Made by a program: the position numbers and the translations under genes. Below the pieces are notes generated by a model. The model searched no databases and was not told the origin of the DNA. It worked only from the letters and a program-made list of their open reading frames with translations. From NCBI GenBank assembly GCA_018895075.1, contig JAHIOW010000048.1, positions 1 to 44,258 of the forward strand: a stretch of DNA of 44,258 nt. The letters are read 5' to 3'. Positions 536 to 12,286 of the stretch are shown here, one piece after another. Every line of letters starts with the position of its first letter. The first letter of the stretch is position 1. The stretch is from Candidatus Omnitrophota bacterium. GTDB lineage: Bacteria; Omnitrophota; Gorgyraeia; Gygaellales; Profunditerraquicolaceae.

Positions 536-1081
536 TTAATATTCTTTCCTTTTAGATATCTCTAAATAAAGTTCCATTTCTAAGGCGTCAACAATCTTCT
601 TGAGGGTAAGTAAGGATATATTTTCCCTCCCCCTCTCAATGCGGGATATGATTTGTTGAGAGGCCCTTAATTTTTTGGCTAATGCATCTTGGGTCAATCC
701 TTTTAGTTTGCGTATAGACTTTATCCTCTCTGCAATCAATTTACAAAATTCATCTTGCGGCCTTGTAACGGCTATTGCTTTAGTGACAGATATTCCTTTA
801 TCCTTGTATTTTTCTTTTAATTTTTCGTATATTGCCTGCCAGAATTCTATACGCGGGTTATTCCAGGCATCCTTGCGCATTTGCCTTTTTATCCTATTCC
901 AATTCTGCAAGAAAATCAAGGGTTTTAGATAATTCTTAAATACTTCTTTGGGGATATTCTTTCTGGAAAGCAACAGGCCCGACAAAGACAAAAAATGCTT
1001 ACTTTCGGGTTCTTTTAATATAGATTGGGCCTTTTTAATGCTTATCTTCCTGTCCCAGAGCCAATCTCGTTTTAGAATCAT
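536..1081 (-). CDS. XRE-family HTH protein, probable antitoxin of the AbiEii-type toxin
   Basis: A 181-residue protein. The C-terminal part (about 115-172) is a clear XRE/Cro helix-turn-helix: ERIKSIRKLKGLTQDALAKK, then a recognition helix beginning ASQQIISRIERG. The N-terminal ~110 residues are helical, rich in Trp, Lys and Arg, and not assigned; they could bind the toxin. Its ATG overlaps the toxin stop codon by 4 bp (ATGA), so translation is probably coupled. Toxin-first order and an XRE partner differ from the canonical AbiEi(winged-helix)-AbiEii order. Binding to the palindromes upstream of the toxin gene would give autoregulation; this is inferred from layout. Confidence 0.75.
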   Translation of the reverse strand: MILKRDWLWDRKISIKKAQSILKEPESKHFLSLSGLLLSRKNIPKEVFKNYLKPLIFLQNWNRIKRQMRKDAWNNPRIEFWQAIYEKLKEKYKDKGISVTKAIAVTRPQDEFCKLIAERIKSIRKLKGLTQDALAKKLRASQQIISRIERGRENISLLTLKKIVDALEMELYLEISKRKEY

Positions 1082-1794
1082 ATGGATTCAACCTCTTTTT
1101 CGATAATTCTGTCTATTTCCTTTTTGAAATGGCGTTCTATATCGCTATAATCAATATTTTTCTTTGATTGTAATTCTAAAAGCCCGGTTTTCATATCCAG
1201 GCGGCTATATGTGCTAAACCATCTTATAAGGGTCTCGCGCATCAGGGGGTTGCCGAACCTTAAGGAAAAGTCCGATAACTTCATAAATATCTGAGAAAGG
1301 CAATATAAATCATAGAAATCTTTTGCCTCCTGCCTGCCTCCTTTTGAAATTCTTTTACCTATGGAATCCTCTGTTTGCAGAGTGCCCGTTAGGGCATAAA
1401 TTTTTCTAACATAAATATCCTCTAATGATAAAACTTTTATTCCGTTTATTATCTTGGCCGGCTTTATGCGCTCAAGATAATCCTGAACAAAATCTAACTT
1501 TAAAGACTCTTTTGCATTGATACCTATAGAGTAAACCAGTATTTTTACTCTATTTTTCCGGGCCTCTTCCGCGATAATCCCTATTTTCTTTTTTAATGTC
1601 AGCGACAAGAATTTTACTATTTCAAGCACCCTTATTTTACTAAAACTTTGCGTAAAAAAATCCAAATCTAAAGATTGGCGGTGGTTAAAATAATATAATG
1701 ACAAGGCGGTCCCGCCACCCAAATAAAAATCATCTATTTTATTAGATAAGACTTCTAATACCTTATTCTGGTAATCTATTACCTTAGTCTTCAT
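1078..1794 (-). CDS. AbiEii/AbiGii-family nucleotidyltransferase toxin
   Basis: A 238-residue protein if started at the internal ATG (1794); the frame is open 12 codons further upstream, but those codons lie in the promoter. Motifs fit the AbiEii (DUF1814) nucleotidyltransferase-like fold: GGGTAL at 26-31, HRQSLDLDFF at 38-47 with the expected acidic pair, a later KLDF, and an RQEAKDFYDLY segment matching the family's R-x-x-KD-x-x-DL motif. AbiE toxins are known to transfer nucleotides and halt growth in phage abortive infection or toxin-antitoxin roles. The gene overlaps its XRE partner. A sigma70-type promoter ends just before the chosen ATG, so the message would have almost no leader. Confidence 0.8.
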   Translation of the reverse strand: MKTKVIDYQNKVLEVLSNKIDDFYLGGGTALSLYYFNHRQSLDLDFFTQSFSKIRVLEIVKFLSLTLKKKIGIIAEEARKNRVKILVYSIGINAKESLKLDFVQDYLERIKPAKIINGIKVLSLEDIYVRKIYALTGTLQTEDSIGKRISKGGRQEAKDFYDLYCLSQIFMKLSDFSLRFGNPLMRETLIRWFSTYSRLDMKTGLLELQSKKNIDYSDIERHFKKEIDRIIEKEVESI

Positions 1795-1801
1795 AATCGC
1801 A

Positions 1802-1830
1802 AGTATACAACATAAAAGTTGTTTTGTCAA
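1802..1830 (-). promoter_or_regulatory. Sigma70-type promoter of the toxin-antitoxin operon, apparently leaderless
   Basis: Read on the minus strand, TTGACA (1830-1825) is followed by a 17-bp spacer and TATACT (1807-1802). Seven bases after the -10 comes the ATG at 1794, so the predicted start site falls at or next to the start codon and leaves no room for a Shine-Dalgarno sequence. The -35 is a perfect consensus and the -10 matches at five of six positions. Confidence 0.75.
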
Positions 1831-1862: not shown

Positions 1863-3053
1863 CTAAAAAAACTTCTTCATCATAAGATTTATATCCTCCC
1901 CCTCATGGTAAAGCTCTGCCATGGCCTCAGCCAGCAGGGGCGAAAACTGCTTGCCTGCAAGCTGCTTAATTTCTTTCACCGCCTCTTCTTTAGAAAGGGT
2001 GCGACTGTAAGGCCGGTCAGTGGTCATAGCGTCAAAGGTATCCGCCACAGAGATAATTGCCGCAATCAGCGGGATTTGTTCCTGCTTTAACCCTTCTGGA
2101 TAACCTGTGCCGTCATATCTCTCATGATGATATTTTACGCCCAGTATGGAGTCCCCTAATTCCTTTATGGGCTCTAATATAGTGGCGCCAACCAAGGGAT
2201 GTTGCCTTATTTTTTCCCTCTCCTCTTCAGTCAAAGCCTCTTCTTTATTTAAGATTGACTCCGGGATGCCAATCTTACCTATATCATGCAGGAGCGCGGC
2301 AATGTGCAAATGTTCTAAGAACTGATCATCAAAGGCCTTTTTATTCTTCTGGCCAAGTTTCTTGGCAACCTCAAGAGAAAGTGTGGTTACTCTCTGGGTA
2401 TGGCCATGGGTATAATGGTCTTTGGCATCAATAGCCGCAGCCAGGGCGATAGTAGTATGAATAAAAAGCACATATTTTTTATTCAATTCTAATTCTAATT
2501 CCTTAAAAAGCTGGGCATTTCTTATGGCCATAGCCACATCTGAGGCCAAGGCACTAAAGAAATCCAATTCCTCTTTAAGAAATCTTGTTCCGTCTTTTTT
2601 CTTTCCCAGCAAAAGGATGCCCAATAATTCATTCTGGAAATAACTGCTGATACAGGCCTCTGCCTCAAAAAGGCCCATTTGATACAAGGCGCCTTTTAAA
2701 ATCTGTTTTAAATCCGGCGTTATCCTTTTACTTAACCACCTTTTCCCTTGTTCATAGACCAGCGTTCCGTCAGATAAAAGTTTTCTTTCATGGCGTTCTT
2801 TGAAAAAACGGATGAGCAAATTATCTAAATCCATACGCACGAATTTAAGCGGAACCTTTAAACCTAATGCCCCCCTAGAATCTGTCAGGACATAGGTATT
2901 TTTTTCTCTATCGTGGAGCAATATCCCGGCGTGACTGACATTTACCTTGTGCACAATGGTGCGGATAATCATCTTAATCAGGGTATCCGGTTCGTGGACC
3001 AGGATCATGTTCTTGGCGGTATTTTCCAGTTCCCTCTTATAATTTATGCGCAT
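1863..3053 (-). CDS. GAF-HD-GYP protein, predicted cyclic-di-GMP phosphodiesterase
   Basis: A 396-residue protein. An N-terminal GAF-like domain (about 10-185) precedes an HD-GYP domain (about 205-375). H256-D257 lie in HDIGKIGIPE, followed by the HHERYDGTGYPEG signature, HPLVG and the ADTFDAMTTDRPY motif, so the metal ligands and the GYP loop that define active enzymes are present. Expected reaction: hydrolysis of cyclic-di-GMP to pGpG/GMP in the cytoplasm. No receiver domain is fused, but a stand-alone receiver gene lies 15 bp upstream. The GAF domain resembles those of the two neighbouring kinases and may sense the same ligand. It is the last gene of the 12.3-1.9 kb run. Confidence 0.88.
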   Translation of the reverse strand: MRINYKRELENTAKNMILVHEPDTLIKMIIRTIVHKVNVSHAGILLHDREKNTYVLTDSRGALGLKVPLKFVRMDLDNLLIRFFKERHERKLLSDGTLVYEQGKRWLSKRITPDLKQILKGALYQMGLFEAEACISSYFQNELLGILLLGKKKDGTRFLKEELDFFSALASDVAMAIRNAQLFKELELELNKKYVLFIHTTIALAAAIDAKDHYTHGHTQRVTTLSLEVAKKLGQKNKKAFDDQFLEHLHIAALLHDIGKIGIPESILNKEEALTEEEREKIRQHPLVGATILEPIKELGDSILGVKYHHERYDGTGYPEGLKQEQIPLIAAIISVADTFDAMTTDRPYSRTLSKEEAVKEIKQLAGKQFSPLLAEAMAELYHEGEDINLMMKKFF

Positions 3054-3068
3054 AGTAACTTTAAGTTT

Positions 3069-3434
3069 TTATTTAAGCAATACCTTTAAGACAGTCTCTT
3101 CCAGCTCATCCAGAGCCAAAGGCTTATGGATATAGTCCAAGGCGCCTAGGCCCTTGCACACTTCCAATGATTTATCATCGTCAGAATCTTTACCGGTAAC
3201 CATCACTACCTTTATGCCTTTATTCTTATTTTTTATACGCTTTAAGGTCTCAACTCCGTCTATACCATTCATTTTGATATCCAGTAACACCAAATCCGGC
3301 TTTTGCTTTTCTATCAATGCCAACGCCTCCTCCCCGCTGCCGGCAGTGGTTACCTCAATCTTTCGTTTACGGAAGAAATTTGCCCCGAATTCCCTTACAT
3401 CTGCTTCGTCATCTACGATTAACAACCTTGCCAT
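3069..3434 (-). CDS. Single-domain response regulator (CheY-like receiver)
   Basis: A 121-residue protein consisting only of a receiver domain. The acidic pocket is D8-D9, the phosphoacceptor D52 lies in LVLLDIKMNG, T80 falls in VVMVTG, and the conserved Lys is in YIHKP. With no output domain it must act by protein contact, as a phosphorelay shuttle or regulator of a neighbour. It lies 11 bp downstream of a hybrid-free histidine kinase and 15 bp upstream of the HD-GYP gene, so it is the obvious link from kinase to phosphodiesterase. That role is inferred from order. Confidence 0.9.
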   Translation of the reverse strand: MARLLIVDDEADVREFGANFFRKRKIEVTTAGSGEEALALIEKQKPDLVLLDIKMNGIDGVETLKRIKNKNKGIKVVMVTGKDSDDDKSLEVCKGLGALDYIHKPLALDELEETVLKVLLK

Positions 3435-3445
3435 CTCTTATCTCC

Positions 3446-5614
3446 TTATTTGGCTATGGGTAGCTCCAGAGTAAAGCGCGTGCCTGTCTTATATTCAGAA
3501 TCAAAATCAATCCTTCCCTTGTGGGTATCGGTAATAATCTTATTGATTACATATAGGCCCAGGCCTGTTCCCCGCCGGGAAGAAACCTTGGTGGTAAAAA
3601 AGGGAGTAAAGACCTTCTTTTTGTCTTCCTCCTTTACCCCCAGGCCATTATCTTTTACGATAATCTCTAATACGTTATCTTTTGGCTGCGCAGAGACGGT
3701 AATCCGGCCGCGATAACCTTCTTCCTGTAACATATTGCGCCTCTCTACAATGGCATCATAGGCGTTATCTATAAAATTAAAAAACATCTCCTGCAGTTGC
3801 GCCAGATTCCCTTTTATTTTGGCTAAGTCCTGGGGGAAATCACGCACAATATCTATCTCTGATAGTTTTACTTTGTATTGGGCCATCTCCATAGTGTTAT
3901 CTAAAACAGTGTTTAGCTCCAGCGGTTCAAGCCCCTTATCTCCTTTACGGGAATATTTAAGCAACCCCTGAACTACCTGCCCGCCCTGCATCACGTTTGC
4001 CTGAATGCGTTCAAGAGCATACTTCATCTCTTCGGTAAATTTCTTGAACTCCGCGCTGCATCCAGAGGTATCGGTAATCTTAAGGGTATCCAGGGCATCG
4101 CTGGCAATCAAGGAAAGGGCATTAAAACGGTTATTTATCTGATGCGATAGCCCGTCAGCCATGGTTCCGATAGTGGCCATCTTTTCTGCCTGGGCAATCT
4201 GCTCCTGCATGGTTTTTGCCTCTTCGTAAAACAGGGCATTTTCAATAGCCAGAGCCGCCTGGGTGGCAAGGACCTGAAAGACACTAAGGTCATCGGGGGT
4301 ATAAATCTGGCCGGAGATTTTATCTCCCAGGATAATAAGCCCCATAGATCTATCCTCTAAAAAGCTGGGGATGATTACCGATGCAGAAATCTGGCGCATA
4401 TTTTCCTCTAGATTTCTATAGGTAATATCTCCAAAGTCTTCCATTTGGCGTTTTATCTCTTCGTAAATAACCGGCTGACGCCTGGTAGTAATCCAGGTAA
4501 CAATAGGGCTATCGGCGGTTAATTTTGAATTGAATTGTTTGTTTTTGTTCCGGCTTGCCTGCAGGATATACTCATTGGTTTCCGAATCATGAAGATAAAT
4601 TGCGGCAAAAGAGATACCCACGGTCTTGGTAACAATGTGCACAGTTAAGTTTAACAGTTTTTTTAAATCCCGGATGCGCGTCATACCCAATGCCGCCTGT
4701 TTTAAGGTGTTTTGATAACGCCTCTGTTCTTTGAGTAATCTTCCCTCAGCCCTGCGCTCAAGGAAGATGTAGATAAATGGCCCCACTGTGGCTAAGGCGG
4801 CCATCAAACTCAAAGGCCCTACCCACCAATTAGCGCCCATAATTTCAATAAGCCATTGCCTCAACCAACCTGTTACAGCAAAGGGTATTCCTAAAACCAG
4901 GGTATAAACCGCAATAAAGATTCCTGTACGGGTAATAGCAACCGTAATATCCATGAGACGGTAACGAATAATAGAGTAGGTCAGGACTATCATGCAGGCC
5001 ACAACCAAAAAATCGTGGGGGAAGAGCTCACGAAGCCCCAAAGAGGTGGAAAAATGAATTATTCCACTAAAAAATGCTAATAAAAAACCGGCAAATACAT
5101 ACCTTATTTGATTTTTTTTAGAACCACTCGATTCTCTTATACCAAGGTAAAGTTTATAAAAGCAATATAAACAGACAATTCCAAAGTACAGAATGAATAT
5201 TATATATAAGGGGCCTCCTACTATTGAGAAATACGAATTGGCCCTTTTTATATTTCTTATAAAAATCGGAGAGAACAAAAAAGGCAAAAAGACTAAAATC
5301 GAGGCGATAAAAGAGCCCTTAATTAATTTTCGTTCTTTGGGGACTTTTTCGATATCTAGAACAGTTAGCCCAAAATTCAGAAAGGCGGGAGCTGTAAAGA
5401 TAGCGGCAATATAAACAAGGCGGGTGAAAAATAACGATTTTTCTGGCCACCCTATCCAAGCTAAAAAAGGAAAAAGGCACCATGTCCCAGCACAAAGAAT
5501 AATAAAAATAATGGCTTTACGACTCTTATCTTGGATGCCTTTCAGATACACAAATAAAGATAGAGAAAAGGAAATCGCAAAAGCTATTATTGAGGAAATA
5601 GTGTAAGTATTCAT
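3446..5614 (-). CDS. 7TM-GAF sensor histidine kinase (copy 1)
   Basis: A 722-residue kinase. About seven hydrophobic segments fill residues 5-225 (HisKA_7TM-like), with two more to about 290. A GAF domain follows (about 310-470), then the dimerisation helix with H491 in GLSHQINNRFNAL and a HATPase domain with N-box NFIDNAYDAI, DNGLGV and TGLGLYV. The residue after HQINN is Arg where most HisKA proteins have Pro, so the acceptor helix is slightly atypical. It is clearly paralogous to the kinase at 7979-10144 over its full length, sharing DITVAITRTGIFIAVYT-type and GLIILGDK-type segments. It overlaps the aldehyde dehydrogenase gene by 4 bp. The ligand is unknown. Confidence 0.9.
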   Translation of the reverse strand: MNTYTISSIIAFAISFSLSLFVYLKGIQDKSRKAIIFIILCAGTWCLFPFLAWIGWPEKSLFFTRLVYIAAIFTAPAFLNFGLTVLDIEKVPKERKLIKGSFIASILVFLPFLFSPIFIRNIKRANSYFSIVGGPLYIIFILYFGIVCLYCFYKLYLGIRESSGSKKNQIRYVFAGFLLAFFSGIIHFSTSLGLRELFPHDFLVVACMIVLTYSIIRYRLMDITVAITRTGIFIAVYTLVLGIPFAVTGWLRQWLIEIMGANWWVGPLSLMAALATVGPFIYIFLERRAEGRLLKEQRRYQNTLKQAALGMTRIRDLKKLLNLTVHIVTKTVGISFAAIYLHDSETNEYILQASRNKNKQFNSKLTADSPIVTWITTRRQPVIYEEIKRQMEDFGDITYRNLEENMRQISASVIIPSFLEDRSMGLIILGDKISGQIYTPDDLSVFQVLATQAALAIENALFYEEAKTMQEQIAQAEKMATIGTMADGLSHQINNRFNALSLIASDALDTLKITDTSGCSAEFKKFTEEMKYALERIQANVMQGGQVVQGLLKYSRKGDKGLEPLELNTVLDNTMEMAQYKVKLSEIDIVRDFPQDLAKIKGNLAQLQEMFFNFIDNAYDAIVERRNMLQEEGYRGRITVSAQPKDNVLEIIVKDNGLGVKEEDKKKVFTPFFTTKVSSRRGTGLGLYVINKIITDTHKGRIDFDSEYKTGTRFTLELPIAK

Positions 5615-7173
5615 CTATCTATTGTCCTGCTGACACCTTGTAAGTGAGAGGTTTTTTGCCAGAAATAATTCATTTCTCCGAAAGGACCGCCGCTTTTACA
5701 AGTACCTCCGTGTGTTGAAAGATATGGAGAAAAAGCGATATGGCGAGAGTTAATTCTAAACATCCCGCAATTATCTAGTTGTTTAGCAAATTTTCGCATA
5801 TATTTTGCTGAAGATATCCAAAGAGAAGTCCGAATGCCATAGTTGTGCTTATTGACAAATCGAATAATCTTTTCGAAAACTTCCTCATCTGTCCCTGTAA
5901 CAATAATCAATGGTAAAAGAGGGAAGAAGATTTCTTCTTTTATACATCGCATCTCGATTGCTTTCTTGATATCTATAACCTCTAAAAGCGTAGGCCGTAA
6001 ATACATTCCCTCGGGATCAGGACAATTTAAATAATTAATACGTTCGTTCCCATAAAGAACTTTTGCCCCTTTAACAAGAGCATCATTAAGAAAATCGGAA
6101 TAATCTTTAATTTTTCCTACAGGAGCTAGGATTGTATCTGGATCGCTTGGTAGAGAAGCTTTTATGGTTTTCGTTTTCTCGATCATTATGCGTAAAAAAT
6201 CATTATATGCCTCATAATGTATGAGCGAAATTTTAGGAACCATGCATATTTGGGTTGAACCGAGAAAACAATCTAGCAATGAATCGCTAGCCTTATTCAA
6301 ATCACCATCTTTCCAGACTGCTAGTATATCATTTCCTGAGAGTTCCAGAATCGATTTCTTACCAGCCTGGAATATTTTGGTGCCGATTTCCAATCCTCTT
6401 TTACTGTCTCCAAAGAAAATTATATCGTTTACGTAGGCACTCTCTAACCATTCATCCATCATTTTTTTTGGATTACCTACCACTAGATTTACAGTACCTA
6501 AAGGGCAGTTATTCTTTACTATTGCTTCATAAACAACTTCCCTCCAAAGGAAAAGAGTTGACAATGGGGCTCTTAAGGAAGGTCGGACAACTATGGTATT
6601 ACCTGTAATCAAAACAAGAATACCATTGTAGGAATCGCTTGCAGAAGCATTTGCAGGTGTTGTCATACAAACAACGCCGTCTGGTTTTCTTGACCAATAA
6701 AGAATCTCTTTATTGTACCTACCAATCTCATGTCGGACTTGTGTACAATAAAAATCTATTGTTTCAGGACATGTTCCCATCCGCATCCCCTCAAATTCCC
6801 ACTCTGCTAACTTTCTAGGATGTCCCTCTATCATCATTAATTTAATAAATTCTTCTTTCTTCTTAAGTAATAAATCATAGCAATCCAAAAGCATCTTTTT
6901 TCTTGTAGCCAATGAAACCTTACGGAACTTTTGAAAAGCTTTATAAGCTGACTCAATGGCGAGCTGATTAGTTTCATTATCTCCAAGACAATATTTTCCA
7001 AATACATATTCGTTTGCCTCTTTGGAATCCTCTTGAAGCTTTCCTATTTTAATATCAGTCATAACTCTAAAAGTATTTTTAAAATCACTTATAAATTTAT
7101 CCGAATATGGAAAATATCCATAACGTCCCGTATCTAGGTCCTTCCCTTCGACTAAAAGTGTAAACTTTTTCAT
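5611..7173 (-). CDS. Aldehyde dehydrogenase superfamily protein
   Basis: A 520-residue member of the NAD(P)-dependent ALDH superfamily. Catalytic Cys is C310 in STQICMVPK; the general-base Glu is E277 in ILELSGND, 33 residues earlier as in classical ALDHs. The coenzyme loop FFGDSKRGLEIG replaces the usual FTGS-type motif and TTPANASASDSYN occupies the PWN-like region. Start and length are normal. The subfamily is not one I recognise: the active-site surroundings are divergent, so oxidation of a fatty aldehyde or action on an acyl thioester are both possible. The gene looks more AT-rich than its neighbours, which hints at transfer. It lies 5 bp after a receiver gene and overlaps kinase copy 1. 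With an acyl-ACP reductase in the same run, a fatty aldehyde is the likeliest substrate (inference). Confidence 0.8.
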   Translation of the reverse strand: MKKFTLLVEGKDLDTGRYGYFPYSDKFISDFKNTFRVMTDIKIGKLQEDSKEANEYVFGKYCLGDNETNQLAIESAYKAFQKFRKVSLATRKKMLLDCYDLLLKKKEEFIKLMMIEGHPRKLAEWEFEGMRMGTCPETIDFYCTQVRHEIGRYNKEILYWSRKPDGVVCMTTPANASASDSYNGILVLITGNTIVVRPSLRAPLSTLFLWREVVYEAIVKNNCPLGTVNLVVGNPKKMMDEWLESAYVNDIIFFGDSKRGLEIGTKIFQAGKKSILELSGNDILAVWKDGDLNKASDSLLDCFLGSTQICMVPKISLIHYEAYNDFLRIMIEKTKTIKASLPSDPDTILAPVGKIKDYSDFLNDALVKGAKVLYGNERINYLNCPDPEGMYLRPTLLEVIDIKKAIEMRCIKEEIFFPLLPLIIVTGTDEEVFEKIIRFVNKHNYGIRTSLWISSAKYMRKFAKQLDNCGMFRINSRHIAFSPYLSTHGGTCKSGGPFGEMNYFWQKTSHLQGVSRTIDR

Positions 7174-7178
7174 ATTAG

Positions 7179-7553
7179 TTACCCCAAAACATTTTTAATT
7201 ATTCGCAGAAATTCCTTGTTATCAAAAGGTTTATATAAATAGTCAAATACTTCTAACTCTTTTGCGCTCACATACTTTTCCATATCGGCATAACCTGTAA
7301 TCAATACTTCGGGAACTGGCTTTTTGTTTGAGTTTTCTAAGTGCGCACGAATTCGTTTAATAGTTTCTATACCATCCAGTTCAGGCATTCTGACATCACA
7401 GATAATAAGGTCAAAATCATTTTTTTTAACTTTATCTATGGCTTCCTCTCCACTCTTAGCTACAGTTGCATTGTATCCTTCAATGCTCAATAGTTTTAAC
7501 AGACTTTCCGTAACTAGCTCTTCGTCATCAATCACCAGAATCTTCTTTGCCAT
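7179..7553 (-). CDS. Single-domain response regulator (receiver, tandem copy)
   Basis: A 124-residue receiver-only protein. Acidic residues are D10 and E11, the phosphoacceptor D53 lies in LIICDVRMPELDG, Thr is in VLITGYA, and Lys in YLYKPFD. No output domain is present. It has the same layout as the adjacent upstream receiver, including the segment KKPVPE before the Thr motif. The two genes share an identical 32-bp block over their ribosome-binding site and first codons, indicating tandem duplication. It lies 5 bp before the aldehyde dehydrogenase gene. Confidence 0.9.
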   Translation of the reverse strand: MAKKILVIDDEELVTESLLKLLSIEGYNATVAKSGEEAIDKVKKNDFDLIICDVRMPELDGIETIKRIRAHLENSNKKPVPEVLITGYADMEKYVSAKELEVFDYLYKPFDNKEFLRIIKNVLG

Positions 7554-7972
7554 TTTTAGGTTCTCCTTAATTATAGTAAGTTTGCTTTTCTATAGCTTCC
7601 TTTGTAGTTTGTAACAATGTCTTGATATCAAAGGGTTTTTCTATATAACCTGCAGCCTGTAATTCCAAGGCTTTCTGGTACATTTCTTCTTTTGCATAGG
7701 CGGTGATAAAGATTTCAGGAATAGGTTTTTTATGATTTTGTGCTATATGCTCTCTGATCTTTTTCACGGTTTCTATGCCGTCCATATCAGGCATTTTTAT
7801 GTCTGACATGATTAGATCAAATCCATCCTCTATCATACGTCTGAGTGCTCCCTGACCGCTTAGAGCTGTGATTACCTTATATCCTTCTCTGGTCAGCAAT
7901 CTTTTTAAAGTCATTAGTACTAATTTATCATCATCAATTAACAGAATCTTCTTTGCCATTTTTAGGTTCTCC
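7535..7972. repeat. 32-bp direct repeat spanning the 5' ends of two receiver genes
   Basis: Positions 7535-7566 and 7941-7972 are identical. The block covers the Shine-Dalgarno sequence (AGGAGAACC on the minus strand), the ATG and the first codons (MAKKIL) of both receivers. It marks a tandem duplication, gene conversion or a potential recombination site that could delete one receiver. Confidence 0.8.
7567..7959 (-). CDS. Single-domain response regulator (receiver, tandem copy)
   Basis: A 130-residue receiver-only protein. D10-D11 form the acidic pocket, D53 in LIMSDIKMPDMDG is the phosphoacceptor, Thr is in FITAYA and Lys in YIEKPFD. It has no DNA-binding or enzymatic output domain. It lies directly downstream of kinase copy 2 (19 bp) and upstream of its sister receiver (13 bp). 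It is probably the partner of kinase copy 2; the sister may serve copy 1 or compete for phosphate. This assignment is inference from order. Confidence 0.9.
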   Translation of the reverse strand: MAKKILLIDDDKLVLMTLKRLLTREGYKVITALSGQGALRRMIEDGFDLIMSDIKMPDMDGIETVKKIREHIAQNHKKPIPEIFITAYAKEEMYQKALELQAAGYIEKPFDIKTLLQTTKEAIEKQTYYN

Positions 7973-7978
7973 TCGTAA

Positions 7979-10144
7979 TTAAACTTCTATTTTTAATTTG
8001 TTTTCTACTTTTACCTTGGGTAATTTTATAGTAAATGTAGAACCTTTATTGAGTTCAGACTGTACAGTAATCATACCATTGTGTTTCTCGATAATCGCCT
8101 GGCATATTGAAAGACCAAGGCCGGTCCCTTTTCCCACCTCTTTGGTAGTAAAAAAGGGGTCAAATATCTTGGAGATTTTTTCCGGCGCTATTCCCATACC
8201 TTCATCCTTGATATTAATCTTTATCCAGTCATCGCCTTTTGAAAAGGATATACGTATATCGCCGCTCTTTTTTATCTGCTTGATAGCGTCCCTGGCATTT
8301 AAGATTATATTCGTCACTACTTGTTCTAATTCATTTTGATTACCCGTAACTAGATATCCATCGCCTTTGGCCTCGCTGATTATCTTGATATTTTCCTGCT
8401 CTAACTGATAACCCAGGAAAGCAGTTACATTCTTAATGACGTTCAATAAATCTACCTTGGATATCTCTGCAGCCTCTAAGGGTTTCTTGGCATAGGCCAT
8501 TAATTTCTGCACAATTGTGCGGCAGCGCTTGGTTGCCTCCTCTATTAACTCCAGAGATTCCCGGTCCAATTTAGCGTCAATTTCCCCGCCCGAAGCCAAA
8601 AGCATCTGCACATTGGTTAATATTGCCGTCAATGGATTATTTATTTCGTGAGCCACCCCGCCTGCCAGGGTGCCCATAGTAGCCAATTTTTCTACCTGAA
8701 TAAGCTGTTTCTGCACCTCCATTAATTCCTTTGTCCTCTGCCTGACCTGCTCTTCCATATTGCCATAAAGCAATGCGTTCTCGATAGCTACGGCAGTATG
8801 GCTGGCTAAAATAGAAAAAATTCCTAAATCCTCCGATGAATAAATCTTTCTAGAGAGTTTATCTCCCAGGATAATAAGGTTTGATAATTTATTCTCAAGA
8901 AAACTGGGTACAATCACCTCGGCATTCAAGGACTGCATCTGCGTTACTAATTCCCGGGAGGCATAATCAAGATCGCCTTCTGAATCTATTCTTGCCTCTT
9001 CATAAACCAAAGGTTCTCTATGATCCTGCAACCAGGCAATCAAGACGTTTTTGCTGCTTATTGAATGTATCTGGTCCTTTTTTAAATTACACCCTGCTTT
9101 CAAAATAAACTCATCTGCCTGTTCATCATATAAATATATTGCCGAATGAGAAATACGCACCTGCTCGGTAACGGTATCTACAACCAAATCCAATAATTTT
9201 TGTAAATTATGGATACGCGTCATCCCGCCTGCAGTCTGCTTTAAGACTTCGTGGTAGCCTCGTTGTTCTTTAAGCAGCCTGCCTTCGGCCTTACGCTGCA
9301 GGTATATATAAATAAATGGCCCGAAAGTAGCTGAGGCCGCCATCAACCCCGCAGGCAATACCCACCAATTTATGCCCCAGGTCTCAACAAGCATTTCCTT
9401 CATCCGGATCGCAATGGCGAAAGGTAATCCTAAAAGTATGGTATATACCGCGATAAAAATTCCCGTGCGGGTAATAACAACTTTGATATCCATAAGGTGG
9501 TGCTTCAAAATGGCATAAGTCAAAATCCAGGGATATATAAATATGAAGAGGTCGTGGGGTATGGGTTCTTTATTGGTATAGGTTGCTACGAAATGTATTA
9601 TTCCGCTTATAGAACCGAATATAAATGCCCAGGTTACATAAATCAATTGGCTCCTGCGGTAGCCTCTGACAGTCTTCAATTCAATAAAGAGCTTAAAGAA
9701 GATGTTCGTAAAAATAACCGCAAAAAATATCATGAATGGGAAATATAACGGCCCCGGTTCAGGAGAAAAGCTGGGAGCAAAACGCCTTACATCCTTAACC
9801 AGTAAAGGGGTAAAAGAAACAGCGGCAAATAATATAGAAACGATATAAAAAACAATGAGCTTCTTTTTCTCTTCGGTTTTACCCAATAGGCTAATCATAA
9901 AATAAAACCATGCGGTAGGAACGAATACGGCAAAGATATATAATAAGCGGGCGATAAGAAGGGCGTTATAATCGCTTTTTGGCAGGCTGGTTAAAAAGGG
10001 AAACAGGGTCCAGATGCCCGTAAATACGGTTGCCAGAAAAAATGACCTGTTCTGACTATTCCTTGCGCCTTTTAAGATAACCGGGATTGCAAAGAAAAAA
10101 CATGCTGAACTGGCAATAAGCGAAGATAAAGAATAGGGATTCAT
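7979..10144 (-). CDS. 7TM-GAF sensor histidine kinase (copy 2)
   Basis: A 721-residue kinase with the same architecture as copy 1: N-terminal 7TM region (about 5-225), two further hydrophobic stretches to about 290, GAF domain (about 310-465), coiled linker ERQRTKEL-like, HisKA and HATPase. H499 lies in GGVAHEINNPLTAIL, a canonical acceptor box. The ATPase N-box is NIILNARDAI, with DEGMGI, FDPFFTTK and GTGLGLS. HisKA_7TM regions are thought to detect ligands at or within the membrane. Its ATG overlaps the acyl-ACP reductase stop by 4 bp, which ties sensor and enzyme in one transcript. The signal is unknown; a lipid or aldehyde product is inferred from context. Confidence 0.92.
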   Translation of the reverse strand: MNPYSLSSLIASSACFFFAIPVILKGARNSQNRSFFLATVFTGIWTLFPFLTSLPKSDYNALLIARLLYIFAVFVPTAWFYFMISLLGKTEEKKKLIVFYIVSILFAAVSFTPLLVKDVRRFAPSFSPEPGPLYFPFMIFFAVIFTNIFFKLFIELKTVRGYRRSQLIYVTWAFIFGSISGIIHFVATYTNKEPIPHDLFIFIYPWILTYAILKHHLMDIKVVITRTGIFIAVYTILLGLPFAIAIRMKEMLVETWGINWWVLPAGLMAASATFGPFIYIYLQRKAEGRLLKEQRGYHEVLKQTAGGMTRIHNLQKLLDLVVDTVTEQVRISHSAIYLYDEQADEFILKAGCNLKKDQIHSISSKNVLIAWLQDHREPLVYEEARIDSEGDLDYASRELVTQMQSLNAEVIVPSFLENKLSNLIILGDKLSRKIYSSEDLGIFSILASHTAVAIENALLYGNMEEQVRQRTKELMEVQKQLIQVEKLATMGTLAGGVAHEINNPLTAILTNVQMLLASGGEIDAKLDRESLELIEEATKRCRTIVQKLMAYAKKPLEAAEISKVDLLNVIKNVTAFLGYQLEQENIKIISEAKGDGYLVTGNQNELEQVVTNIILNARDAIKQIKKSGDIRISFSKGDDWIKINIKDEGMGIAPEKISKIFDPFFTTKEVGKGTGLGLSICQAIIEKHNGMITVQSELNKGSTFTIKLPKVKVENKLKIEV

Positions 10145-11703
10145 TTTATTTGCTTTATCTTCTCTATTATTGAATTATCTATCAATCTATCCCCCCAGTA
10201 AAAATCCGAGATTTCAAAGCCGTGCTTTTTGCCTAACTGCCTTATTTCTTCTATCTTTTCTGAAGTAATATTTCCCCTGCCAAAACTATAACTTTCATAA
10301 CGTTTCTCTAAAGCCAGGATTATGCCTTCAGCAAAGCATCCATAAATTATATTTGAAGAAGGCAGGCCTAAGTCAAGAGGAAGAAACAAGGGCGTGGGAG
10401 ATTTTGACAATCCTCCGGAGAAAACCAGGATATCCTCCCTGCTTACCGGGGCATAGGAAATATTCTTAGGATATCCGATATCACAGATAATGGAGCCGGG
10501 TTTAAACCAGCCTATATCCAGGATTGAGGAACTAACGCTGGCAGCGGCAATGATAATGTCTGCATCAGAAACCGCCTTTTTATTATCTGTAGTAGCAAAG
10601 ACCTTTGCCTTTTTTCTCTTTTTTAATTCTGCCTTTAGCCGGCTTAAATTACTTTTTGTCCTGCCGGTAATAGTCAGTTGTTTAACATTATCTACCAGGG
10701 CCCTGGCGCAGGCGCTCCCGATGTCCCCTGTGCCCCCTACGATAGTGACTTTTAGAGAGGCAATATCTAAATTTAGCAGCCCGGCTGCCTTAAGGACTCC
10801 GTCGATAGTCATCGCTGCGGTAAAGGTGTTGCCTGTAGTCACTGCAATATCCACCTCCTGGGCAATCTCATGGCCGACCCTTTCAGCTACGATAGAAGTA
10901 AATCCGCCCAGGGTAACAATCCCAATCCCCTGTTTCTCGGCAATCTTACAGGCCTTTACTACCTTAGAAAATACAGTCCAGATATCTTTTTCTACCATAT
11001 CGGGGATAAAAGTAGCGATTATAAAACAGCCATTTGTGGTGTTGCCTGCCTTAGATTTAAAATCTTTGATGTCATAAAGTTTAAAAGACGGGCTGATGTT
11101 AAAAAGATGGCTTATAAATTCAAGCGAGGGCATAACAAATTTAGGATTTAACATCTTAAAGCACCTGTCTAGGTGTTTGAAATTATAGGGATGGCCGATG
11201 ATGCCGAATCCTGATATCTTGTCAACCAAACCATGTTTATAACCGGCATACCTCATAGAAATTGACCTTTTTTCCAGGGCTTCCAGTATGGCCTGGAAAT
11301 TCCGGGTAAGTATTTTCTGGAGATAGGCCTTTGCAAAATCCTTGATTGCCGGTATCCCCACCCTTAAAGAGACATTCACAGTTACCTGGGTCCCTTCCTT
11401 ATGGTCAGCGAATCTCCATTCCCCCTTAAAATCCTCCAAATCTCCCTCAATGGCCTTAAAATAAATCCTGTTTTGCTTAAGGCTGAGCGTCTCCTCTTCG
11501 GTCCAGCTTATGGGAACGCCATTAACCTCGATCTTCCAGCTCGTTCTAATTTTATTGCGGCTCTTTTGAATAACCCTTGCCTCCTTAACATTAGCTATAT
11601 AAGCCGGGAATTCCCAGACTTTAACAATAAGGCGGATTACCTTCCATTTGGCAGCAGGTATGACTCTTGATACACTTATCTCTATTAAATCTTTATCCGG
11701 CAT
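10141..11703 (-). CDS. SRPBCC/START-like domain fused to a long-chain acyl-ACP reductase (AAR-like)
   Basis: A 520-residue two-domain protein. Residues 1-150 look like a polyketide-cyclase/START (SRPBCC) lipid-binding fold (IEISVSRVIPAAKWKVIRLI; later FKGEWRFADHKEGTQVTVNV). Residues about 160-515 closely resemble cyanobacterial acyl-ACP reductase: FGIIGHPYN, GIGIVTLGGFTSIVAE, TTGNTFTA, the NADPH motif GGTGDIG at 323-329, CDIGYPKNI, C456 in GCFAEGI at the position of the acyl-thioester cysteine, and YSFGRGNIT. Cyanobacterial AAR reduces acyl-ACP to fatty aldehyde with NADPH. Those enzymes are about 340 residues long, so the N-terminal domain is extra. The gene overlaps the PlsC gene by 11 bp and kinase copy 2 by 4 bp. 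Substrate chain length cannot be told. Confidence 0.82.
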   Translation of the reverse strand: MPDKDLIEISVSRVIPAAKWKVIRLIVKVWEFPAYIANVKEARVIQKSRNKIRTSWKIEVNGVPISWTEEETLSLKQNRIYFKAIEGDLEDFKGEWRFADHKEGTQVTVNVSLRVGIPAIKDFAKAYLQKILTRNFQAILEALEKRSISMRYAGYKHGLVDKISGFGIIGHPYNFKHLDRCFKMLNPKFVMPSLEFISHLFNISPSFKLYDIKDFKSKAGNTTNGCFIIATFIPDMVEKDIWTVFSKVVKACKIAEKQGIGIVTLGGFTSIVAERVGHEIAQEVDIAVTTGNTFTAAMTIDGVLKAAGLLNLDIASLKVTIVGGTGDIGSACARALVDNVKQLTITGRTKSNLSRLKAELKKRKKAKVFATTDNKKAVSDADIIIAAASVSSSILDIGWFKPGSIICDIGYPKNISYAPVSREDILVFSGGLSKSPTPLFLPLDLGLPSSNIIYGCFAEGIILALEKRYESYSFGRGNITSEKIEEIRQLGKKHGFEISDFYWGDRLIDNSIIEKIKQIK

Positions 11704-12286
11704 CTAACATCTCCTGGATTATATTTTTAATCTTAGAAATCCCTTCCTGTAAATATATATCATCAATTACATCATCAAATTCTTTCAATAAATATACTGG
11801 TTTGGCAATCTTTAGTTTTATGGGCACAGGCTTGGGAAATTTGGCCGTTACCGGCAGGGCCTGATAAGTTCCCAGAATAGCACAAGGGACAATTGGCCTA
11901 CCGGTTGTCAATGCCAGGACAGCCGCACCCCTTCTGAATTCCCTTAAATTTCCGTCCCGGCTGCACCCTCCTTCCGGGAATAAACCCACAACCTCATTTT
12001 TCATTAAATAATCAACTGCCTTTTCAGATGAAGCGCCGGTTGGTAAGGCCTCTAATCTTTCCAGAGACCACCTCAACCAGGGTATACTATATAGGAACCT
12101 GGAAGATATACAGTGAATTTTCACGGGGACGGCTGCGGCAATAACAAAGGAATCCATGAGACTGGAATGATTAGCCACTATAATAAAATTATTTTTCTTT
12201 GGTAGATTCTCTAAACCCTCCACCTTAAGCCTAAAGAACAATTTTAATACTATTTTAGATAAGGCCCTGAATATCGCATACCACAT
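11693..12286 (-). CDS. plsC: PlsC-like 1-acyl-glycerol-3-phosphate acyltransferase family
   Basis: A 197-residue acyltransferase. The catalytic HX4D box is H40-D45 (NHSSLMD); the FPEGG substrate motif occurs near residue 104, followed by the family-typical FRRGAAVLALTTGRPIVP. One N-terminal hydrophobic or amphipathic stretch suggests membrane attachment. Known members acylate lysophosphatidic acid in phospholipid synthesis, though homologues handle other acceptors. It is the first gene of the compact lipid-signalling run and its stop overlaps the acyl-ACP reductase start. It may be the ordinary housekeeping enzyme or a dedicated one using the same acyl pool; sequence alone does not decide. 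Confidence 0.85.
   Translation of the reverse strand: MWYAIFRALSKIVLKLFFRLKVEGLENLPKKNNFIIVANHSSLMDSFVIAAAVPVKIHCISSRFLYSIPWLRWSLERLEALPTGASSEKAVDYLMKNEVVGLFPEGGCSRDGNLREFRRGAAVLALTTGRPIVPCAILGTYQALPVTAKFPKPVPIKLKIAKPVYLLKEFDDVIDDIYLQEGISKIKNIIQEMLDAG

Follow-up and report, generated by a model that had tools for sequence, protein, structure and literature searches.

Why should enzymes predicted to act on fatty acyl chains be interleaved with membrane histidine kinases, lone receivers, and a candidate cyclic di-GMP (c-di-GMP) phosphodiesterase in a single operon? The question is raised by a nine-gene locus in a 44,258-nucleotide stretch of Candidatus Omnitrophota DNA (contig JAHIOW010000048.1, positions 1 to 44,258; hereafter, the window), which is contig C43 of a 1.05-Mb, 88% complete assembly (GCA_018895075.1; G000). 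Comparison across the phylum indicates that seven-transmembrane (7TM) kinases of this kind are mostly encoded next to an enzyme and that the 7TM domain, not the kinase core, tracks the class of that enzyme. On balance, we lean toward the view that the window operon is one instance of modular enzyme and 7TM-kinase pairs, in which the kinase reads the product or an intermediate of the neighboring enzyme and feeds receivers and c-di-GMP.

The operon comprises nine open reading frames (ORFs), transcribed from 12286 down to 1863. Domains were called on the window ORFs with Pfam and NCBIfam profiles, and the products, in transcription order, are as follows (ACP, acyl carrier protein; AAR, acyl-ACP reductase; ALDH, aldehyde dehydrogenase; HK, histidine kinase; REC, receiver):

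11693..12286, minus strand: PlsC-type 1-acylglycerol-3-phosphate acyltransferase, 197 aa (Pfam Acyltransferase, 2.9e-25; NHxxxxD and FPEG motifs)
10141..11703, minus strand: SRPBCC (START-like) and AAR-like fusion, 520 aa (Polyketide_cyc, 7.6e-14; GGTGDIG; Cys456 in GCFAE)
7979..10144, minus strand: HK1, AAR-paired 7TM-GAF-HisKA-HATPase kinase (Pfam; H-box VAHEINN, N, G1, and G2 intact)
7567..7959, minus strand: REC1, receiver without output domain (Response_reg, 1.4e-28; phosphorylation residues intact)
7179..7553, minus strand: REC2, receiver without output domain (Response_reg, 2.2e-27; phosphorylation residues intact)
5611..7173, minus strand: ALDH of a subfamily of its own, whose N-terminal extension is conserved (Aldedh, 4.1e-62; E277, C310, E413)
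3446..5614, minus strand: HK2, ALDH-paired 7TM-GAF-HATPase kinase (Pfam; H-box LSHQINN, N, G1, and G2 intact)
3069..3434, minus strand: REC3, receiver without output domain, adjoining HD-GYP (Response_reg, 1.2e-29; phosphorylation residues intact)
1863..3053, minus strand: (GAF-)HD-GYP protein, candidate c-di-GMP phosphodiesterase (HD_5, 7.4e-38; HDIGK and HHERYDGTGYP intact)

The initial annotation had described nine co-directional, tightly packed genes, and its coordinates proved exact, with overlaps of 4 to 11 bp (PlsC/AAR, 11 bp; AAR/HK1, 4 bp; ALDH/HK2, 4 bp) and gaps of 5 to 19 bp (19, 13, 5, 11, and 15 bp, in transcription order). The domain identities it gave to the nine products were borne out, with the GAF domain of the HD-GYP protein marginal (20.6 bits, just under the Pfam cut-off of 22.4). 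HK2 has no HisKA profile match, yet its H-box (from residue 489) is intact. Active-site residues are present in both kinases and each of the three receivers, as well as in AAR, ALDH, and the HD-GYP protein.

To which genes are such kinases coupled? We scored the gene directly upstream of 138 7TM kinases, drawn from 43 genomes and the fetched loci, and found a median same-strand gap of 3 bp. Omnitrophota 7TM kinases mostly lie directly downstream of a lipid- or metabolite-modifying enzyme: the upstream gene encodes AAR in 35 cases (a count raised by the deliberate fetching of AAR loci), a methyltransferase in 19, another 7TM kinase in 12, ALDH in 9, an FAD oxidoreductase in 7, a GMC oxidoreductase in 6, and an ICMT-type methyltransferase in 5, the rest being other proteins; the non-AAR counts come largely from the genome-wide kinase list. 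The recurring methyltransferase of 331 to 344 aa matches no named family in NCBIfam. Enzymes encoded between AAR and the kinases also vary from locus to locus and include GMC oxidoreductase, extended short-chain dehydrogenase/reductase (SDR), B12-radical SAM, FadL, dedicated KAS/FabG/FabZ/ACP sets, a LuxD-like acyltransferase-methyltransferase fusion, nitronate-monooxygenase-like and formyltransferase-like proteins, and a class-III aminotransferase with GNAT. Analogues of fatty-signal synthases are found among the enzymes upstream of 7TM kinases, namely, an alpha-oxoamine synthase-methyltransferase fusion (L194), the LuxD-like acyltransferase (L059), and methyltransferases. The L194 fusion (L194:9819-11843; serine palmitoyltransferase/CqsA superfamily) lies directly upstream of its 7TM kinase in an AAR-negative genome. 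Behind AAR at L074:6577-10671 come a PigE-like class-III aminotransferase, encoded as a protein of its own, and a GNAT, an arrangement that suggests amine products in another Omnitrophota class.

Which half of the kinase follows the enzyme was assessed on FastTree phylogenies, many branches of which are weak. The 7TM-domain tree groups by upstream enzyme, with 18 label changes versus 52.5 for shuffled labels (0/200 shuffles). For an identical set of 62 kinases, 12 changes are counted on the sensor tree and 24 on the kinase-core tree (shuffled, ~31-32), and on the latter the GMC and FAD-oxidoreductase labels are not clustered at all. The nearest relative carries the same enzyme for 51/62 kinases by sensor and 29/62 by core (chance, 26%; McNemar p=1e-5), a contrast that persists when close relatives are excluded (p=5e-4). 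Pairwise comparisons locate the transition: identity between HK2 and its relatives jumps from 19-36% to 50-68% where the 7TM domain ends (residues 209-217) for 14 kinases with other upstream enzymes (including L210, whose upstream enzyme was not read) and for one ALDH-paired kinase, and the sole HK2 relative without a break (L189; log likelihood ratio 0.9) is ALDH-paired too. HK1 breaks at 203-209 where the upstream gene encodes GMC, radical SAM, SDR, or LuxD-like proteins, and mostly at 450-469, after the GAF domain, when compared with the second AAR-paired type. The break points of the sensor swaps thus cluster at two domain boundaries, and it is the 7TM domain rather than the kinase core that tracks the enzyme class in the phylum.

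The window genome encodes three HisKA_7TM kinases, HK1, HK2, and one on contig C60. The C60 kinase belongs to a second, receiver-methyltransferase-7TM kinase locus (L071, 6270-9805) and is 67% identical to HK2 right of residue 212 (the core) and 25% identical in the sensor. The 7TM domain of HK1 (window positions 9440-10144) was modeled with a pLDDT of 92.7; its top Foldseek matches in the PDB are G protein-coupled receptors (TM-score to query at most ~0.63), none with E<0.001, so that the likeness is read as common seven-helix topology only.

How widely is the layout conserved? Surveys of AAR and ALDH covered 384 sampled Omnitrophota genomes. AAR homologues occur in 100 of them, ~60 of these being near full length with SRPBCC. 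The fetched loci show a recurrent order, PlsC-AAR-kinase-receiver-(methyltransferase or ALDH)-kinase-REC3-HD-GYP, and the same gene set and order in many relatives place the nine-gene layout well above chance. The order is not unique to this contig, so that the refuting case named in the initial annotation does not apply. The HK-REC-HD-GYP tail recurs in relatives; the run HK2-REC3-HD-GYP is also found in L035, L037, L043, L056, L072, L080, L086, and L087. The anticipated co-occurrence of AAR with 7TM-GAF kinases is conserved as well. A 7TM kinase follows within three genes downstream of AAR in 40/47 full-length AAR loci, most of the other seven ending at a contig edge, and of the 113 HisKA_7TM matches in 35 genomes with AAR, 64 are found no more than 12 kb away from it versus 1.5 expected, a count in which kinases of one locus are not independent. 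At least one such kinase lies within 12 kb in 31/35 AAR genomes, and HisKA_7TM kinases number 0-1 per genome in eight members of the same family that lack AAR. At L061:5274-7221, a full-length AAR without a 7TM kinase is followed by a PilZ (c-di-GMP-binding) protein.

The window-type ALDH subfamily is restricted to 11/384 genomes, 9 of which have AAR (Fisher p=1.4e-4). A 7TM kinase follows ALDH in 12/12 loci, immediately in nine and with one gene in between in three, and this coupling is kept even where AAR sits on another contig. ALDH is an optional part, coupled to its own kinase. The AAR/ALDH pair as signal-making core, proposed in the initial annotation, is not supported in that form, other loci having a methyltransferase, GMC/FAD oxidoreductase, radical SAM, LuxD-like protein, aminotransferase, or dedicated type II fatty acid synthesis (FAS-II) set instead. 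The interpretation given there is otherwise supported in part, the points in its favor being the co-occurrence, the HK-REC-HD-GYP tail, the preserved catalytic residues, and the c-di-GMP network of the window genome, whose 5 GGDEF and 7 PilZ matches make c-di-GMP signaling plausible.

What the enzymes do is suggested by homology and conserved residues. The window AAR has the NADPH motif GGTGDIG, its Cys456 aligns with the AAR catalytic Cys, and it matches the crystallized Synechococcus AAR (PDB 6jzq) at E=9e-36; its score against the TIGR04058 equivalog is 169.5 bits for a cut-off of 449.7, marking it as a homologue rather than an equivalog, so that AAR activity is predicted only. An AlphaFold model of the SRPBCC-AAR protein consists of two domains and is confident (pLDDT 86.9). 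AAR should reduce acyl-ACP to a fatty aldehyde, ALDH, whose E277, C310, and E413 are invariant in an alignment of 12 relatives, should oxidize an aldehyde to the acid, and PlsC is expected to act on acyl chains. The PlsC gene lies directly upstream of AAR in ~27 fetched loci and is absent there in the f53-type class. The closest relatives of the window AAR are from Omnitrophota metagenome-assembled genomes (MAGs), except two carrying other labels. AAR domains without SRPBCC are found in Bacillota MAGs (L156-L170), in a conserved neighborhood without 7TM kinases. At L059:6095-9363, an AAR lacking the catalytic-type Cys stands beside the LuxD-methyltransferase fusion; behind them come genes for a kinase, a receiver, two KAS proteins, ACP, and FabZ, in that order.

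How might the parts work together? Translational coupling ties each 7TM-GAF kinase to one enzyme, and the kinase most likely senses the lipid product or an intermediate of that enzyme through its 7TM domain. It may then phosphorylate the output-less receivers, and REC3 may act on the adjacent HD-GYP protein, like an RpfG split in two; in this proposal, such action would let lipid state set c-di-GMP. The tracking of enzyme by sensor suggests an undescribed family of lipid-sensing systems, possibly acting from cell to cell. In the literature searched, we found no report linking Omnitrophota with acyl-ACP reductase and no description of cell-cell or lipid signaling in Omnitrophota, and broader searches returned nothing relevant. 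More tentatively, we consider it possible that the phylum practices combinatorial lipid signaling, in which interchangeable enzymes, each with its own 7TM sensor on a conserved GAF-kinase core, provide many chemical dialects that converge on shared receivers and c-di-GMP, between cells or with hosts. A sensor exchanged with the adjacent lipid enzyme offers a direct route to assigning ligands to orphan membrane kinases; if the proposal is true, it would extend fatty-derived signaling to AAR, ALDH, GMC, and radical-SAM chemistry and define a family of bacterial 7TM receptors whose synthases are known.

Several observations weigh against paired sensing of this kind. The window operon has no evident exporter, and the AAR of L059 has lost the catalytic-type Cys (YASYAEG). 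Dedicated FAS-II sets (KAS/FabG/FabZ/ACP), absent from the window locus, occur at several loci and suit bulk-lipid synthesis as well. The AAR class holds two sensor types (window/L034/L049 versus L035-like), with 7TM domains ~23% and AARs ~70% identical, and AAR identity correlates with the kinase core (rho 0.80), not with the 7TM domain (rho 0.25), so AAR is compatible with either sensor type. The sensors paired with ALDH are likewise spread over several groups (4 changes on the sensor tree). The 5' part of the kinase gene physically adjoins the enzyme gene, so both can move together, and sensor domains generally diverge faster than kinase cores; fast divergence combined with linked recombination could mimic part of the tracking. 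Simple co-divergence of AAR with its sensor was rejected on the rho of 0.25, a value implying that the pairing holds between enzyme classes and not as fine co-variation within AAR.

The chief rival, a serious one if on the whole unlikely, is feedback on a structural or secondary lipid pathway of the membrane or envelope, regulated stepwise by kinases that watch membrane state or intermediates, with no communication signal. It would account for the KAS/FabG/FabZ/ACP sets and the PlsC, FadL, MGDG-synthase-like, and LpxL-like genes in or beside the loci, for the many different tailoring enzymes, and for the RND pumps upstream in one class. For pathway control, however, it would be odd to conserve a tail made up of lone receivers and HD-GYP with no transcription factor, the sensors are exchanged with the enzyme while the kinase cores stay, and the window locus lacks a FAS-II set. 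Improbable, in our estimation, is mere linkage, whereby the kinases respond to an unrelated cue and do no more than share an operon with lipid enzymes, sensor and enzyme being carried along together as neighbors on recombining DNA. Besides the adjacency and rapid sensor divergence noted above, it draws on the two unrelated sensor types that both follow AAR; it sits poorly with the invariable succession of ALDH and 7TM kinase in varied contexts, sometimes on another contig than AAR, with the clustering of break points at two domain boundaries across many lineages, and with the near absence of 7TM kinases from AAR-negative genomes of the same family.

Is the operon, then, a member of a known signaling system? 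In agr pherotype loci, the signal-making gene and the sensor half of the kinase vary, and the kinase core is conserved. The same pattern marks the ComQXPA pherotypes, in which the ComP N-terminus is variable (PMC4008528). Both systems use peptide signals. In Omnitrophota, entire classes of enzyme are replaced, and families rather than strains are compared. PhcBSRQ of Ralstonia likewise combines the gene for a synthase, the methyltransferase PhcB, with a membrane sensor kinase (PhcS) and receivers without DNA-binding domains (PhcR/PhcQ) and uses a fatty-acyl-derived signal (PMC8578825). By layout alone, this plan recurs in Omnitrophota methyltransferase-7TM kinase-REC loci, for example, on contig C60; the window operon differs in having AAR and ALDH and no methyltransferase, with HD-GYP as output and no PhcA-type regulator. 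CqsA-CqsS and LqsA-LqsS (PMC3376566, PMC3285556) pair one lipid-signal enzyme with one multi-helix sensor kinase, to which the L194 kinase behind its alpha-oxoamine-synthase fusion can be likened, but the synthase domain of that fusion gets a better score as a serine palmitoyltransferase than as a CqsA-type enzyme, and the nine window genes include no alpha-oxoamine synthase.

Cyanobacterial AAR acts with aldehyde deformylating oxygenase (ADO) or with AldE, the latter giving free fatty acid (PMC3594298), as AAR followed by ALDH would here; the window differs in its SRPBCC fusion, other ALDH subfamily, and kinase coupling. The AAR-ADO alkane pathway was rejected because the window assembly has no ADO (PF11266). 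The model for PrsK of XrtA/PEP-CTERM systems, TIGR02916, aligns with HK2 over almost its full length (residues 60-719) and with the GAF and kinase parts of HK1, but the scores of 88.6 and 113.1 bits fall far below the cut-off of 300 and the operon has no PrsR partner. Unlike PigE (prodigiosin MAP aminotransferase), the window AAR protein has no class-III aminotransferase domain. The operon would thus appear, by analogy, to work like the Phc, Cqs, or Rpf systems and to belong to none.

The likeness to the diffusible signal factor (DSF) system RpfF-RpfC-RpfG, drawn in the initial annotation, stands as a functional analogy: lipid enzyme, membrane kinase, and HD-GYP lie within one operon, REC3 and HD-GYP resemble a split RpfG, and RpfC is bound and activated by a fatty acid (PMC5391125). 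A true DSF/Rpf-type system, with AAR/ALDH replacing RpfF, is very improbable, and membership was rejected: no crotonase (RpfF family, PF00378) was found in the operon or the 88%-complete assembly (control genomes were positive), neither HK1 nor HK2 carries a REC or Hpt domain as an RpfC-type hybrid would, REC3 and HD-GYP are separate adjacent genes with no REC-HD-GYP fusion, and ALDH is rare in the family.

The transcript may start further upstream, with a lipoprotein gene 24 bp off and a PHP gene overlapping the latter by 4 bp, and a promoter and terminator scan of the window gave no signal clearly above shuffled sequence. Many loci, for example L035 (6951-7184) and L117 (9174-9413), encode a small DNA-binding protein of the HTH_17 type just upstream of PlsC/AAR; this protein, absent in the window, is a candidate transcriptional link. 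Downstream, the transcript may extend into a toxin-antitoxin-like pair, an AbiEii-type nucleotidyltransferase and an HTH protein (window positions 536-1830), directly after the HD-GYP gene. L044 and L088 contain related pairs, and L052 and L185 have other nucleotidyltransferase genes within or next to them, suggesting that such pairs repeatedly insert into these operons.

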